Assembly: GCA_017539105.1 (NCBI GenBank)
Contig: JAFYHQ010000024.1
Location: 1 to 64,000, forward strand
Length of the DNA: 64,000 nucleotides
Source: Erysipelotrichaceae bacterium
Lineage (GTDB): Bacteria; Bacillota_I; Bacilli_A; Erysipelotrichales; Erysipelotrichaceae
Reading direction: 5' to 3'
In this document: one piece after another, positions 50,885 to 57,535 of the stretch
Layout: each line of letters begins with the position of its first letter
Position numbering within the stretch: the stretch's first letter is position 1
Translations under genes and position numbers: made by a program
The notes under the pieces: model-generated
What the model saw: the letters and a program-made list of their open reading frames with translations, nothing else
Told to the model about the DNA's origin: nothing
Databases searched by the model: none

Positions 50885-53053
50885 ATGGTAGAACTGATCG
50901 ACTCGAAAAAAGAACTTTACGATGAGATCCATAAGTATATCAGCGATCCTGATTCTTTGGCTCTGATCGATAAAGCCTATGATTTTGCGTATGAAAAGCA
51001 CAAGGACCAAAAACGCAAATCCGGACAGCCTTACTTTGTGCATATTTTGAATGTGGGCTATGAGCTGGCAAAACTCAGAGTCGATCCGAAAACGATCTGC
51101 GCGGGACTCCTTCATGATGTGATCGAAGACTGCGATGTCAAGGAAGATGAATTCAAGGAACTGTTCGGCGATGAGATCTATGAAATGGTTGATGCGGTCA
51201 CCAAGATCTCTACCTTGAAATTTACGGATGAAAAAGAATATCAGGCAGTCAATCATCGCAAGATCCTGATCGCGATGGCCAAGGATGTAAGAGTGATCCT
51301 GGTCAAGCTGGTAGACCGTCTGCACAATATGCGTACCTTGGAGTATCTGGCTCCGGAGAAACAGAAACGGATCGCCAGAGAGACGCTGGATGTCTATGCG
51401 CCGATCGCACACCGTTTAGGTATCGCCGAGATCAAGAACGAGCTGGAAGATCTTTCGTTCTATTATCTTGATAATGAAAAGTATCATGAGATCGCCAGAC
51501 TGGTCGAATCCAAGAAGAGCGAACGCGATCAGCAGATCGATATCATGATGGAAGATATTTCCATCGTTCTGAAGATGCATAATATTCCATTCAGGATCTT
51601 CGGAAGATCCAAGCATCTGTATTCCATCAACAAGAAAATGATCACCAAAAACAAGCGTTTCGATGAGATCCTTGATCTTTTGGCGATCCGTATCGTAACG
51701 GAAACGGAACTGAACTGTTACGAGATCTTAGGCTATATCCATGCGGTGTACCGCCCGATTCCGGGACGCCTGAAGGACTATATCGCCATGCCTAAGATGA
51801 ACATGTATCAGTCGCTGCATACCACGATCGTGGGTCCGGATGGACGGATCTACGAGGTGCAGATCCGAACAGAAGCCATGGATGAGGTGGCGGAACGAGG
51901 CGTTGCCGCGCACTGGTCCTATAAGGAAGGAAAACAGCGATCGCAGAAAGAGATCCTGAACGAGCTGCGTTGGCTGAAAGCGTTCGAAGATACTTCGGAA
52001 ACGGATGCCAAAGACTATATGAATGATATCACGCACGATATCTTCAATGCGAATATCTACTGTCTGACCCCGAGAGGAAGAGTCATCGACCTGGCGCAGG
52101 GTGCGACTCCGATCGATTTCGCTTACCGTATCCATACCGAAGTCGGAAACCAGACGGTAGGAGCTCTGGTCAATGGCGTCATGGTTCCGTTGAATACGCC
52201 ATTAAAGACAGGCGATGTCGTCGAACTCAAAACCAATAAGAATTCGACCCCATCCGAGGACTGGCTCAAGATCGTCAAAACCAATCATGCCCGTAACAAG
52301 ATCAAGGCTTATTTCCTGAAGAAGGAAACGGAAGATCGGGAAGCCCTGATCAAGGAAGGCGAAAGCTTGCTGAAGGAAGAATTCAAGAAGCATGATCTTC
52401 TGGAAGAATATCCCGACAACAAGAAGATGGATAAGATCGCGACATCCATGGGTTACTCTTCTGCCCACGATCTGTTCTTTGCGATCGGCTGCCACTCTAT
52501 GATGCCGATCAACATCGTTGAGAGAGTCGCGAAGGCAGGCAAACGAGAAGTCGATCTGGAAACGATCGAAAAGATCACGAAACGGAATTCTGAAAAGACC
52601 CGGGCGATCAGCCATACGGGTATCGTTGTCAAAGGGATCAGTTCGATGAAACTTTCTTTGTCTCCGTGCTGTTCCCCGGTCTATGGGGATGAGATCATCG
52701 GCTTTGTATCGAAGGGTCAGGGGATCAAAGTCCATCGCAAGGATTGTCCGAATATCCAGGGTCTGAAACGTTTTATCGATGTCTACTGGGATCCTGAGAA
52801 ACCGGATCTGAAATATGAGACTTCGATCAAGATCTTCTCCAAAGACCGCTCTTATCTGCTTACCGATCTGGTCACGGTCGTTGCGCAATACAAAGCAAAT
52901 CTGACTGCGGTCAACAGTGTTGCGAATACGGAAGATCTTACTGCTACCACAAGCCTTTCTTTTACGGTCAGCGATCTGGAACAGCTGGAAGTCATCATGG
53001 CGAATCTGCGTAAAGTGGAGAGCGTGATATCGGTTGAAAGAGCCATTAAATGA
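50885..53053 (+). CDS. relA: Bifunctional (p)ppGpp synthetase/hydrolase
   Basis: 722 residues, the long Rel form. HD hydrolase domain (AGLLHDVIEDCD), synthetase domain (RLKDYIAMPKMNMYQSLHTTIVGPDGRIYEVQIRT), TGS domain (YCLTPRGRVIDLAQGATPIDFAY), zinc-finger-like region with CCS/HRKDCP and a C-terminal ACT domain (TDLVTVVAQYKANLTAV). Makes and degrades (p)ppGpp on stalled ribosomes. In Gram-positives one such protein usually does both jobs. A T-box operon for aminoacyl-tRNA synthetases follows, fitting amino-acid sensing. Confidence 0.95.
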   Translation: MVELIDSKKELYDEIHKYISDPDSLALIDKAYDFAYEKHKDQKRKSGQPYFVHILNVGYELAKLRVDPKTICAGLLHDVIEDCDVKEDEFKELFGDEIYEMVDAVTKISTLKFTDEKEYQAVNHRKILIAMAKDVRVILVKLVDRLHNMRTLEYLAPEKQKRIARETLDVYAPIAHRLGIAEIKNELEDLSFYYLDNEKYHEIARLVESKKSERDQQIDIMMEDISIVLKMHNIPFRIFGRSKHLYSINKKMITKNKRFDEILDLLAIRIVTETELNCYEILGYIHAVYRPIPGRLKDYIAMPKMNMYQSLHTTIVGPDGRIYEVQIRTEAMDEVAERGVAAHWSYKEGKQRSQKEILNELRWLKAFEDTSETDAKDYMNDITHDIFNANIYCLTPRGRVIDLAQGATPIDFAYRIHTEVGNQTVGALVNGVMVPLNTPLKTGDVVELKTNKNSTPSEDWLKIVKTNHARNKIKAYFLKKETEDREALIKEGESLLKEEFKKHDLLEEYPDNKKMDKIATSMGYSSAHDLFFAIGCHSMMPINIVERVAKAGKREVDLETIEKITKRNSEKTRAISHTGIVVKGISSMKLSLSPCCSPVYGDEIIGFVSKGQGIKVHRKDCPNIQGLKRFIDVYWDPEKPDLKYETSIKIFSKDRSYLLTDLVTVVAQYKANLTAVNSVANTEDLTATTSLSFTVSDLEQLEVIMANLRKVESVISVERAIK

Positions 53054-53062
53054 TGATAAGAT
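53034..53062 (+). promoter_or_regulatory. Promoter of the T-box operon
   Basis: TTGAAA (53034-53039), a 17-base spacer and TAAGAT (53057-53062), lying across the relA stop codon. Transcription should start near 53069, giving a leader of about 200 bases. Confidence 0.7.
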
Positions 53063-53068
53063 TGTTAT

Positions 53069-53255
53069 GTCGATAAACAAAAGAATTCTATCCTGTTCAT
53101 CTTAGCGAGAAGGGTCTGGTGCAAGCCTTCATGAGCGGATATAAGGGACACTTGTTTGACACCTTAGGGCGTAGGATCTGCGTTAAAGATCTCAAGGGCA
53201 CATTTATGTGAACTAAGGTGGTACCGCGTGATCAACGTCCTTAGAGGACGTTTTT
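53069..53255 (+). ncRNA. T-box riboswitch leader upstream of the peptidase-hisS-aspS operon
   Basis: The T-box sequence AAGGTGGTACCGCG lies at 53215-53228. Antiterminator arms CTAAGG (53213-53218) and CCTTAG (53239-53244) are perfectly complementary. The competing terminator stem (53234-53241 with 53245-53252) runs into five T. The Stem I apex is the hairpin GAAGG...CCTTC around 53108-53130, and AGCGAG precedes it. GACAC occurs at 53147-53151 and 53158-53162. The second is followed by CTTAG, the usual spacing after a specifier. GAC (Asp) and overlapping CAC (His) both fit, and HisRS and AspRS are encoded downstream. Confidence 0.9.
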
Positions 53256-53276: not shown

Positions 53277-54524
53277 ATGTACAACAGTTTCGATCTTATT
53301 GAAAAGCTCTATTTCGTCCGTACTTCGGGTTCGAAAGAAGAGCTGAAAGCGGCGAAAATCATTCAGAAGGAATGCGCAAAATTCAATGTCAAAGCAAAAC
53401 TGGAATCGTTTCCGGTCGATGCCTTTGAAGTAGAAAAATATCAGCTACATTTCATGGAACCAGATATGGATGTACCGTTTGTCGCGGTAGGCATGTCCGG
53501 TTCGACCCCTGACAAGGGCGTGGAAGGGGAACTGGTCTATGTCACTTCCCCGGAAGATGCTATGATCAGCGATCTCAAGGACAAGATCTGCCTGATAGCC
53601 AATAAGATGGTCGATAACAAGACTTACAAGATCCTCGCACAGAAGAAACCAGCCGCTCTGATCCTTTGTACCGGCGATGTCTATCTGGATGAGAAAGATG
53701 TCGATCTGGACCCATACAAGTACCGCAAACGCCATCAGGATCTGGCCTATATTCCTGCCGTATGCATCCGGATGAAAGATGCCGAGAAACTGGTCGAACA
53801 TCTTCCAAAGAAAGCCCATGTCACTTTGAAACAGAAACAGTTCAAGACTGATTCCCATAACGTGGTAGCGGAGATCAAAGGTACTGATAAAGCAGATGAA
53901 ATCATCGTCTATACGGCACACTATGATTCTGTCAGTTATTCCAAGGGAGCCTATGACAATGCAACCGGCAGCGCCTGCATCCTGGAGATGCTGGGATACT
54001 ACAGCGAACACAAACCGAAGAGAACGGTCAGATTCGTCTGGTGCGGTTCGGAGGAAGAAGGACTGCTGGGGTCCAGAGCCTATGTCGAGAAACACAAGAA
54101 ACAGCTGGATAAGATCGTGCTGAATATCAATGTGGATATGCTTGGAGTGACATTAGGCAAAGATATCGCCTGCGTCAGTGCCAATGAAGACCTCGTACAT
54201 TACCTGCAGTATCTGTCAAAGATGGAAGGATTCCCGATGGAAGTCAGGCAGGGCGTCTATTCCAGTGATTCCACTCCGTTTGCGGATGCGGGAGTCCCTG
54301 CCTTGTCTTTTGCCAGACTGCCTGCGAAAGGCGGCGCAGTGATCCATTCCCGCAAGGATGTCATGGATCATCTGTCTGCCGACAACTACTATAAATCATG
54401 TGGATTCATCGAGACATTCTCCGATCATATGATCGGTTCCGTCTGTTTCCCTGTTCCAAGAGAAATACCGGATAAAGTCAAAGAAGATCTCGATTACTAC
54501 AATCTCAGAAAGGAGCGCAAATAA
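53277..54524 (+). CDS. M28-family metallopeptidase with PA-type insert
   Basis: 415 residues, no signal peptide, so probably cytoplasmic. Zinc ligands of M28 are visible: TAHYDSV (His), GAYDNATGS (Asp), CGSEEEGLLGSRAY (Glu-Glu), NVDMLG (Asp) and the C-terminal VIHSRKD (His). A protease-associated domain precedes them. Aminopeptidase or carboxypeptidase activity is expected, releasing free amino acids. It is the first gene behind a T-box that senses uncharged tRNA, so it may supply amino acids during starvation. The ribosome-binding site is GGGAGG. It is two bases from hisS. Confidence 0.82.
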   Translation: MYNSFDLIEKLYFVRTSGSKEELKAAKIIQKECAKFNVKAKLESFPVDAFEVEKYQLHFMEPDMDVPFVAVGMSGSTPDKGVEGELVYVTSPEDAMISDLKDKICLIANKMVDNKTYKILAQKKPAALILCTGDVYLDEKDVDLDPYKYRKRHQDLAYIPAVCIRMKDAEKLVEHLPKKAHVTLKQKQFKTDSHNVVAEIKGTDKADEIIVYTAHYDSVSYSKGAYDNATGSACILEMLGYYSEHKPKRTVRFVWCGSEEEGLLGSRAYVEKHKKQLDKIVLNINVDMLGVTLGKDIACVSANEDLVHYLQYLSKMEGFPMEVRQGVYSSDSTPFADAGVPALSFARLPAKGGAVIHSRKDVMDHLSADNYYKSCGFIETFSDHMIGSVCFPVPREIPDKVKEDLDYYNLRKERK

Positions 54525-54525
54525 T

Positions 54526-55797
54526 ATGCCTTATCAGACAGTAAAAGGAACTTATGACCTGCTTCCGGAAAAGATGAAACGTTTCAATGAACTGGAAACT
54601 CTGTTCCGTTCTTTTCTGGAAATCTATGGCTACAGTGAGATAAAAACACCTGTTTTCGAATATACAGGCGTATTCAAGAAAGAGAACGATACCTCGGATA
54701 TGGTCACCAAGGAGATGTATACGTTCTCCGTCAATGAGAAAGATTCATTGACTTTAAGACCGGAAGGAACGCCTGGAGTCATCCGTCTGATCATTGAAAA
54801 CAAGCTCTACGGAAGCATGGAACTGCCGATCAAGATGGCTTACATCGAAGAAATGTTCCGTCATGAAAGACCGCAAAAGGGCAGACAGCGTCAGTTTACC
54901 CAGATGGGCATCGAATGTATCGGCGACAAGGATCCTCTGATCGACGCGGAAGTCATCGCTTTGGGTTATTTCTATATCAAGACGATCGGTCTTGAAGGTG
55001 TCAAGGTGCTGATCAATTCTTTAGGCGATACCGAATCCAGACTGAACTATAAGAAAGAACTGATCGACTATTTCACGCCATACAAGGATCAGTTATGCAC
55101 TGACTGTCAGAGCCGTCTGCTGAAGAACCCGTTAAGGATCCTCGACTGCAAGATCGATCATGAGAATCCTGTGGTTCAGAATGCTCCGAAAATGAAGCTG
55201 AACGAGGTTTCCGAAGAATACTTCAATCAGGTGAAACACTATCTGGATATTCTGGGAATCCCTTATGAGATCGATGACAAGCTGGTACGGGGCCTGGATT
55301 ATTATACCGATACGGTATTCGAAGTCGTGTCGACGAATGAAGAATCCGGATCGCAGGCAACCATCTTTGGCGGAGGAAGATACGATGATCTGGTCAAAGA
55401 GATGGGTGGGCCTCAGCTGAGCGGCATCGGATTTGCGATCGGATTGGAACGGCTGCTTATTTTAGCGGAAGCGGAAGGCATTTTCCTGGAATCCGAGCCT
55501 TATCTGGATGCCTATGTGATCAATCTGTATGAAAATAACGATCAGGCAATGAAAGTCGCAGCGATGCTCAGAGAAGAAGGCTTCATTACGGAAATGGACT
55601 ACTATCACCGTTCCCTGAAAGCCCAGTTCAAGTCCAGCGATCGCAAGAAGGCAAGATTCGTGATCATCATCGGAGAAGACGAAGTGAAAAATGAGACTGT
55701 GACTTTGAAAGATACTTTGACCAAGGCACAGGAAGAAGTGCCGGTAAAAGAGCTGTGCGAAAGAATGGATCAGCTGCTGGAGGATTATTATGAATAG
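54526..55797 (+). CDS. hisS: Histidyl-tRNA synthetase
   Basis: 423 residues, class II synthetase. Motif 2 is HERPQKGRQRQFTQMGIECIG, the histidine motif LVRGLDYYTDTVFE is present, and motif 3 is GIGFAIGLERL. Charges tRNA-His. It follows the T-box and peptidase gene and overlaps aspS by eight bases, the standard Firmicute hisS-aspS pair. Confidence 0.96.
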   Translation: MPYQTVKGTYDLLPEKMKRFNELETLFRSFLEIYGYSEIKTPVFEYTGVFKKENDTSDMVTKEMYTFSVNEKDSLTLRPEGTPGVIRLIIENKLYGSMELPIKMAYIEEMFRHERPQKGRQRQFTQMGIECIGDKDPLIDAEVIALGYFYIKTIGLEGVKVLINSLGDTESRLNYKKELIDYFTPYKDQLCTDCQSRLLKNPLRILDCKIDHENPVVQNAPKMKLNEVSEEYFNQVKHYLDILGIPYEIDDKLVRGLDYYTDTVFEVVSTNEESGSQATIFGGGRYDDLVKEMGGPQLSGIGFAIGLERLLILAEAEGIFLESEPYLDAYVINLYENNDQAMKVAAMLREEGFITEMDYYHRSLKAQFKSSDRKKARFVIIIGEDEVKNETVTLKDTLTKAQEEVPVKELCERMDQLLEDYYE

Positions 55798-57535
55798 AGA
55801 TCATACCTGTGGAGAATTAAGAAAATCAGATGCCGGAAAGCATGTCAAGCTTGCCGGGTGGGTCGCCAAGAGAAGGAATCTCGGTTCCATCGTTTTCATT
55901 GATTTAAGAGACCGTTACGGAATCACTCAGATCACGTTCGATGAGGAACACAATGAACTGGTCAGGGATGTCCGGAATGAATATGTCATTGAAGTCGAAG
56001 GAATGGTTTCCGTAAAAGAAACGCCGAATCCGAAACTGGAAACAGGCGAGGTCGAAGTATTGGCAGAAACATGCAAGATCTTATCTGCGGCCAAGACGAC
56101 GCCGATGATCATTGCGGATGAAACCGATGCTTTGGAAGATCTGCGTCTGAAATACCGCTATCTCGATATCCGAAGGAATCCGATCAAGGAAAAACTGCTG
56201 TATCGCGACAAGATCACGACGATCGTAAGACGTGTCCTGCATGAGGATGATTTTGTGGAAGTGGAAACACCGATCCTGTCGAAATCCACACCGGAAGGCG
56301 CCAGAGACTATCTGGTTCCTTCGAGACTATACAATGGACGTTTCTATGCTTTGCCGCAGTCTCCGCAGCAGTACAAGCAGCTGCTGATGATCGGCGGAAT
56401 GGACCGCTACTTCCAGATTGCGAGATGTTTCCGTGATGAAGACCTGAGAGCAGACCGACAGCCGGAATTCACGCAGATCGATATCGAAATGTCTTTTGCC
56501 GAAGAAGAAGATATCTTTGCGGTCGTCGAAAAGATCATGAAGACTTTGTTCAAGGAACTTAAAGGAATCGAGGATCTCGCATTCCCTAGAATCAGATATG
56601 TCGATGCGATGGATCAATATGGTTCCGATAAACCGGATATCCGTTTCGAAAATGAAATGATGGACATCAGTTCATTATTCAAGAATACGGAATTTGTCGC
56701 TTTTATGAACTGCCTGGAACAGAACGGCGTCATCAAGTCTCTGGTATTCAAGGATGCTGCCTCGCATCTTTCCAGAAAGCGTTTTGATGAACTCAATGAA
56801 TTCGTCAAAATCTATAAAGCCAAAGGACTGGCATATCTCAAGAGGGAAAACGATTCATTCTCCGGTTCTGTAAACAACGCCTTATCGGAAGAAGAGAAGG
56901 AAACGTTAAGAAAAGAACTGAATCTGGAAAACGGAGATGTATTGCTGATGATCGCCGATCAGAAAGCAATCGCGAATGTCGCGTTAGGCGCTTTGCGAAA
57001 GAAACTGGGACAGGACCTCGGTTTGATCGATGAAAACAAGTATTCGTTCGCCTGGATAACCGAATTCCCGATGTATGAATATTCCGAAACAGAAAACCGT
57101 TGGGTCAGCGCCCATCATCCGTTTACTGCGCCAAGAGATGAAGACATGGACAAACTGGTTACTGATCAGGCAAACTGTTATTCAAGAGCCTATGACCTTG
57201 TATTGAATGGCTATGAACTCTTATCCGGATCGGTACGTATCCATGATTCCGAGATGCAGGCGAAAGTATTCGACGCCTTAGGCCTTACAAAAGAAGAGAT
57301 CAGAAACAAATTCGGTTTCTTTATCGAAGCATTCGATTATGGAACTCCGCCACATTTAGGCGTAGGCATCGGTCTGGAACGTCTGACCATGATCATGACC
57401 GGAACCGACAACATCAAGGATGTCGTCGCTTTCCCGAAGACTGCGTCGGCGTACTGCCTGATGTCGGATGCTCCAAATACGGTCGATGATATTCAGCTTA
57501 AAGAACTGGGTATCGACATCATTGAAAAGGAATAA
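55790..57535 (+). CDS. aspS: Aspartyl-tRNA synthetase
   Basis: 581 residues, bacterial AspRS with anticodon OB-fold (KLAGWVAKRRNLGSIVFIDLRDRYG), class II motif 2 (QIARCFRDEDLRADRQPEFTQIDIEMSF), the bacterial GAD insertion and motif 3 (GVGIGLERLTMIMTGTDNIKDVVAFPK). Charges tRNA-Asp; the discriminating or non-discriminating type cannot be judged from this alone. Co-transcribed with hisS behind the T-box. Confidence 0.96.
   Translation: MNRDHTCGELRKSDAGKHVKLAGWVAKRRNLGSIVFIDLRDRYGITQITFDEEHNELVRDVRNEYVIEVEGMVSVKETPNPKLETGEVEVLAETCKILSAAKTTPMIIADETDALEDLRLKYRYLDIRRNPIKEKLLYRDKITTIVRRVLHEDDFVEVETPILSKSTPEGARDYLVPSRLYNGRFYALPQSPQQYKQLLMIGGMDRYFQIARCFRDEDLRADRQPEFTQIDIEMSFAEEEDIFAVVEKIMKTLFKELKGIEDLAFPRIRYVDAMDQYGSDKPDIRFENEMMDISSLFKNTEFVAFMNCLEQNGVIKSLVFKDAASHLSRKRFDELNEFVKIYKAKGLAYLKRENDSFSGSVNNALSEEEKETLRKELNLENGDVLLMIADQKAIANVALGALRKKLGQDLGLIDENKYSFAWITEFPMYEYSETENRWVSAHHPFTAPRDEDMDKLVTDQANCYSRAYDLVLNGYELLSGSVRIHDSEMQAKVFDALGLTKEEIRNKFGFFIEAFDYGTPPHLGVGIGLERLTMIMTGTDNIKDVVAFPKTASAYCLMSDAPNTVDDIQLKELGIDIIEKE

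Follow-up and report, generated by a model that had tools for sequence, protein, structure and literature searches.

The leader RNA in front of the M28 peptidase, hisS and aspS genes is a T-box of an ordinary, already known type and, judging from its sequence and that of its relatives, it is probably specific for tRNA-Asp (we put this at about 85%). Its specifier loop contains GACAC, in which an Asp codon (GAC) overlaps a His codon (CAC), and an earlier note on this DNA had proposed that the leader might sense both tRNAs. The GAC half of that proposal stands, as this codon is in register at 53147-53149. The CAC half is not supported: in relatives it overlaps a helix, it has been lost repeatedly, the same overlap occurs before ileS, and the base that meets the tRNA acceptor end does not suit tRNA-His.

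Structure of the leader

In the window (the whole stretch of 64,000 nucleotides that was analysed), the leader is placed between relA and M28-hisS-aspS, with the RelA/SpoT gene ending at 53053. The T-box covariance model RF00230 matches 53064-53245 on the + strand over its full length (1-219; 66.6 bits, E=1.6e-14), which bears out the earlier identification of a T-box here. The Rfam gathering cut-off for RF00230 is 93, so a default scan of the window at the gathering threshold came back empty; the genome has 15 T-boxes, 10 of which likewise fall below the cut-off. Besides the covariance match, the leader has a Stem I with specifier and distal loops, a UGGN bulge and a terminator, and the in-register specifier GAC agrees with the downstream gene aspS. 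The features are as follows.

53034-53062, +: promoter-like TTGAAA-17-TAAGAT in the 3' end of relA, from a consensus scan
53064-53252, +: T-box leader RNA, from the RF00230 match (66.6 bits), with Stem I backed by 30 aligned genus leaders
53068-53080, +: 5' strand of basal Stem I (UGUC, bulge GAU, AAACAA; kink-turn-like), pairing with 53152-53161
53104-53125, +: distal part of Stem I, AGCGAG ... GGUGCAAG, with the GAAGG/CCUUC stem, from the Rfam alignment (fifth helix, 94% paired)
53142-53151, +: 3' side of the specifier loop, UAAGGGACAC, from fold and alignment; C53151 is the +2 base, paired in relatives
53147-53149, +: specifier codon GAC (Asp), kept in 109 of 110 hisS leaders, matching the register seen in 10 further synthetase T-boxes of this genome
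53149-53151, +: overlapping CAC (His), judged incidental; absent in 14 of 110 leaders, and equally seen as an overlap before ileS (28 of 29 leaders)
53158-53162, +: second GACAC; the GACA at 53158-53161 and the UGUC at 53068-53071 form the lowest pairs of Stem I
53219-53222, +: UGGU in the T-box bulge, the partner of the tRNA acceptor end, with U as its N base, read from the sequence
53234-53252, +: intrinsic terminator AACGUCCU-UAG-AGGACGUU, then UUUAUU as a U-rich tail

The promoter-like site would put the start of the leader near 53069. The consensus scan alone gave a count not above chance; TTGAAA with a TAAAAT/TAGAAT-like hexamer is also found at the same place in genus relatives.

The minimum-energy fold of the leader is no better than that of shuffled sequences (z -0.75), so we assessed its structure by covariation. 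Across 30 genus leaders, Stem I has 26 pairs in 5 helices and is formed in 83.6% of cells; both sides have changed in 20 of the 26 pairs, and none of 500 shuffles was as good. At the base, UGUC, the bulged GAU and AAACAA pair with UUGUUUGACA, forming helices that are paired at 90% and 93% with compensatory changes present. Above the specifier loop, 53089-53100 pairs with 53131-53141, followed by GAAGG/CCUUC. When the partner strand is slid by one base, pairing falls to 42-53%.

Register of the specifier

GACAC does occur twice in the leader, as the earlier note had observed, at 53147-53151 and 53158-53162, but only the first copy lies in the specifier loop. The second was rejected as a specifier: it belongs to the basal helix of Stem I, as its 3' strand, an assignment made because the Stem I pairing covaries and sliding the partner weakens it. 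At its position, relatives mostly have GAUG or GAUA.

How, then, is the first copy read? The genome has 10 further T-boxes before synthetase genes in which the codon is followed by one unpaired purine and then by the lower helix, and the codon in this register matches the downstream synthetase: trpS UGG, lysS AAA, alaS GCU, ileS AUC, serS UCC, metG AUG, valS GUU, pheS UUC, leuS CUC and thrS ACC (the genes were identified by the N-termini they encode, and the codons were read by eye in the alignments). By this rule, the codon of the window leader is GAC. An alignment of specifier loops gives the same answer, with GAC in the loop register and the last C of CAC in the closing G-C pair in 23 of 23 order-level relatives. 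These relatives, leaders of a sister family in the order, all have GGGACA as the 3' side of the loop with the next C paired to G, and the adjacent lower-helix pairs covary (AAG/CUU with GGG/CCC). At the order level, CAC thus runs into the lower helix.

In the genus of the window, C53151 lies opposite A instead of G, and the register is therefore placed by homology; from the alignments, we take this to be the least firm point of the Asp assignment. Even with no G partner for it, 24 of the 32 genus leaders keep this C. The sister-family hisS-aspS T-boxes (L106-L128) are also unusual in their own right, with a specifier loop of AUUAA/GGGACA that does not have the usual AGUA/GAA motif.

Conservation of the Asp and His codons

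It is tempting to see in GACAC two working codons: GAC would bind tRNA-Asp, and a two-base shift of the loop would let CAC bind tRNA-His, such that a shortage of either induces the operon. The retained C of the genus leaders fits this idea, as does the finding that 95 of the 110 leaders carry GACAC or GACAU, and there is a demonstrated case of a two-codon T-box with a different tRNA pair (Saad 2013, cited in PMC7778990). However, several lines of evidence lead us to consider it unlikely, including the need in relatives to open a covarying base pair before CAC could be read.

The first of these is the record of natural variants. Among 110 hisS leaders drawn from the genus, family, order and class, the specifier is spelled GACAC in 94 and GACAA in 10, with GACAG, GACAU, GACGU, GACCC, GACGC and GGCAC found once each. 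A class-level leader (L162/L351) reads GUGGCAC where relatives have GUGACAC, the Asp codon being gone and CAC retained, through either a sequencing error or a real switch. Across the set, GAC is kept in 109 leaders, whereas a His codon (CAC or CAU) is present in 96 and lost in 14. On the HisRS tree, the His-codon state changed at least 13 times and GAC once, so the two codons are not both conserved; all the while hisS-aspS stayed, and aspS still follows hisS in genus members that do not have CAC. In one leader (L058), a one-base insertion yields GACAG; the His codon is lost, yet the C before UUCCUU is kept, suggesting that this C belongs to the helix side.

Other T-boxes served as a control. 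AUCAC is equally fixed before ileS, occurring in 28 of the 29 ileS leaders read in this order; in hand-read sets, UUCAC is found in 6 of 10 UUC leaders, and CUC leaders have G at +1 (all of these readings were made by eye from printed sequences). A conserved NNCAC is therefore normal and uninformative about histidine, and the overlap in GACAC does not go beyond the general T-box pattern. We judge its CAC to be incidental, a by-product of how a T-box is built: a specifier ending in C, an unpaired purine (usually A) and the C that starts the helix.

The acceptor end and the tRNA discriminator

The N base of UGGN is U in 73 and C in 34 of 107 hisS leaders, and never G or A. In the sister family, it is U in 23 of 23, which makes only a wobble with G73. 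Both tRNA-Asp genes of the window genome end in GCCA, and its tRNA-His ends in CCCA; an N that is U or C and never G therefore fits G73 of tRNA-Asp, not C73 of tRNA-His. The T-box database TBDB accepts a U-G wobble at the discriminator, and it exempts His from the discriminator criterion, as the His discriminator can pair within the tRNA (PMC7778990). Because of this exemption, the N base counts as weak evidence: a bulge able to pair with both tRNAs was not found (N is U or C in 107/107), and the match to tRNA-Asp is support rather than proof. We also looked for clear-cut His T-boxes, defined as GAA-CAC-R-C plus a T-box, across 395 genomes of the class, and none matched.

The tRNA genes of this genome include two dense arrays of 7 and 11 genes (L046, G000:C6:13400-14500, and L053, G000:C17:7400-8800), one of which holds a second tRNA-Asp, with an atypical-looking T arm. 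These arrays may belong to phages.

A leader that reads histidine only, with CAC as the sole specifier and GAC incidental, is far less probable still. Its attractions are that hisS is the synthetase closest to the leader in nearly all relatives, that the hisS-aspS leader of S. aureus goes under the name of a histidine T-box in one paper (PMC7927825), and that one leader reads GGCAC. We rejected it on the better conservation of GAC (109/110 vs 96/110 for CAC/CAU), on the register and on the N base. Least credible of all is a decayed, constitutive leader that no longer responds to tRNA, rejected in spite of the score under the Rfam cut-off and the shuffle-like folding energy, as the T-box sequence, specifier and terminator are conserved across the genus, with covariation, and most T-boxes in this genome also score under the cut-off.

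Proposed regulation

As a tRNA-Asp T-box, the leader would act as a transcription-attenuating riboswitch whose specifier loop offers GAC to the GUC anticodon of tRNA-Asp. The NCCA end of uncharged tRNA-Asp would pair with UGGU (with a G73-U wobble) and hold the antiterminator, allowing transcription to enter M28-hisS-aspS; with charged tRNA-Asp, the terminator at 53234-53252 would form. HisRS would thus be co-regulated with AspRS by aspartate status. Should aspartate status be the only signal to which HisRS responds, then the enzyme is controlled via its operon membership and not by its own tRNA. In leaders that keep GACAC, a two-base loop shift, eased in the genus of the window by the missing G partner of C53151, could conceivably make uncharged tRNA-His a weaker second inducer, or one that acts only under some conditions, though we doubt that it does.

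The operon and its first gene

The three genes named in the earlier note are all present downstream of the leader.

53277-54524, +: M28 family metallopeptidase (PF04389, Peptidase_M28, 2e-40)
54526-55797, +: hisS, histidyl-tRNA synthetase (TIGR00442, 9e-141)
55790-57535, +: aspS, aspartyl-tRNA synthetase (NF001750, 9e-247)

The operon is nearly gapless, as M28 abuts hisS and hisS overlaps aspS. The M28 protein carries the metal-ligand motifs AHYD, DNATG, EEEG, NVDM and IHSRKD, and no signal peptide was seen in a reading of its sequence. The earlier suggestion that this peptidase links tRNA charging to the release of amino acids is speculation, and no special tie of M28 to Asp or His can be claimed. 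M28 lies between the leader and hisS in only 3 of ~34 genus members (the window genome, G007 and G032); in most, hisS follows the leader immediately. A search of genome contigs using the M28 protein found one relative, an uncultured Erysipelotrichaceae genome (isolate RUG14174), and no T-box was found in the 1.5 kb upstream of more distant M28 homologs elsewhere in the genus.

Other lineages of the class (L145, L132, L148, L152) have a GNAT acetyltransferase gene in the equivalent slot between T-box and hisS; PF13302 was found in both GNAT genes tested (L145 and L132). With M28 in some lineages and GNAT in others, genes have entered this slot more than once.

The region before hisS also varies in other ways. 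In one family (L131, L135, L136, L140), hisS has no T-box but a short leader ∼110 bases upstream, in which a hairpin (for example TAGTCAAG...CTTGACTA) and a U-rich run immediately precede the ribosome-binding site; this leader has no Rfam match and is possibly another attenuator. Three further upstream regions (L149, L160, L166) have a strong hairpin (ATCGTCCT...AGGACGAT) and a U run directly before hisS, and aspS was not found behind hisS in their genomes. This hairpin could be an attenuator or the terminator of the upstream gene.

Comparison with known systems

According to a 2017 paper (PMC5313534), hisS-aspS T-boxes characteristically carry GACAC in their specifier loop, and this sequence has been suggested to interact mainly with tRNA-Asp (Gutierrez-Preciado 2009, as cited in PMC5313534). 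The hisS-aspS T-boxes of bacilli and lactobacilli, as cited there, share the operon core, GACAC and the Asp-versus-His question with our leader. Unlike those leaders, ours has M28 between it and hisS, and the usual GAA motif is absent from its specifier loop (GGGACA in order-level relatives). TBDB lists alternative frames and cites the two-codon T-box of Saad et al. 2013 (PMC7778990), with which our leader shares overlapping codons that might both be readable within a single specifier loop. As cited there, that case rests on experiment and concerns another tRNA pair, whereas in our leader the second codon is out of register, and among relatives it varies. The ileS T-box, with its AUC specifier, has the same NNC-A-C after the same loop and so a built-in CAC overlap, but its codon and gene are those of Ile, and no His gene is involved.

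Any specifier ending in C and followed by A and C mimics an overlapping His codon, and recognizing this settles a recurrent misreading. Sequence letters alone are not enough to claim a dual Asp/His, Ile/His or Phe/His T-box, and natural variants such as GACAA, GACAG and GACGU make the published Asp-versus-His question testable. The dual-codon idea is thus already published and has been judged likewise; what is new is the natural-variant test and the ileS control, and what is particular to this locus is the M28 gene between the leader and hisS.
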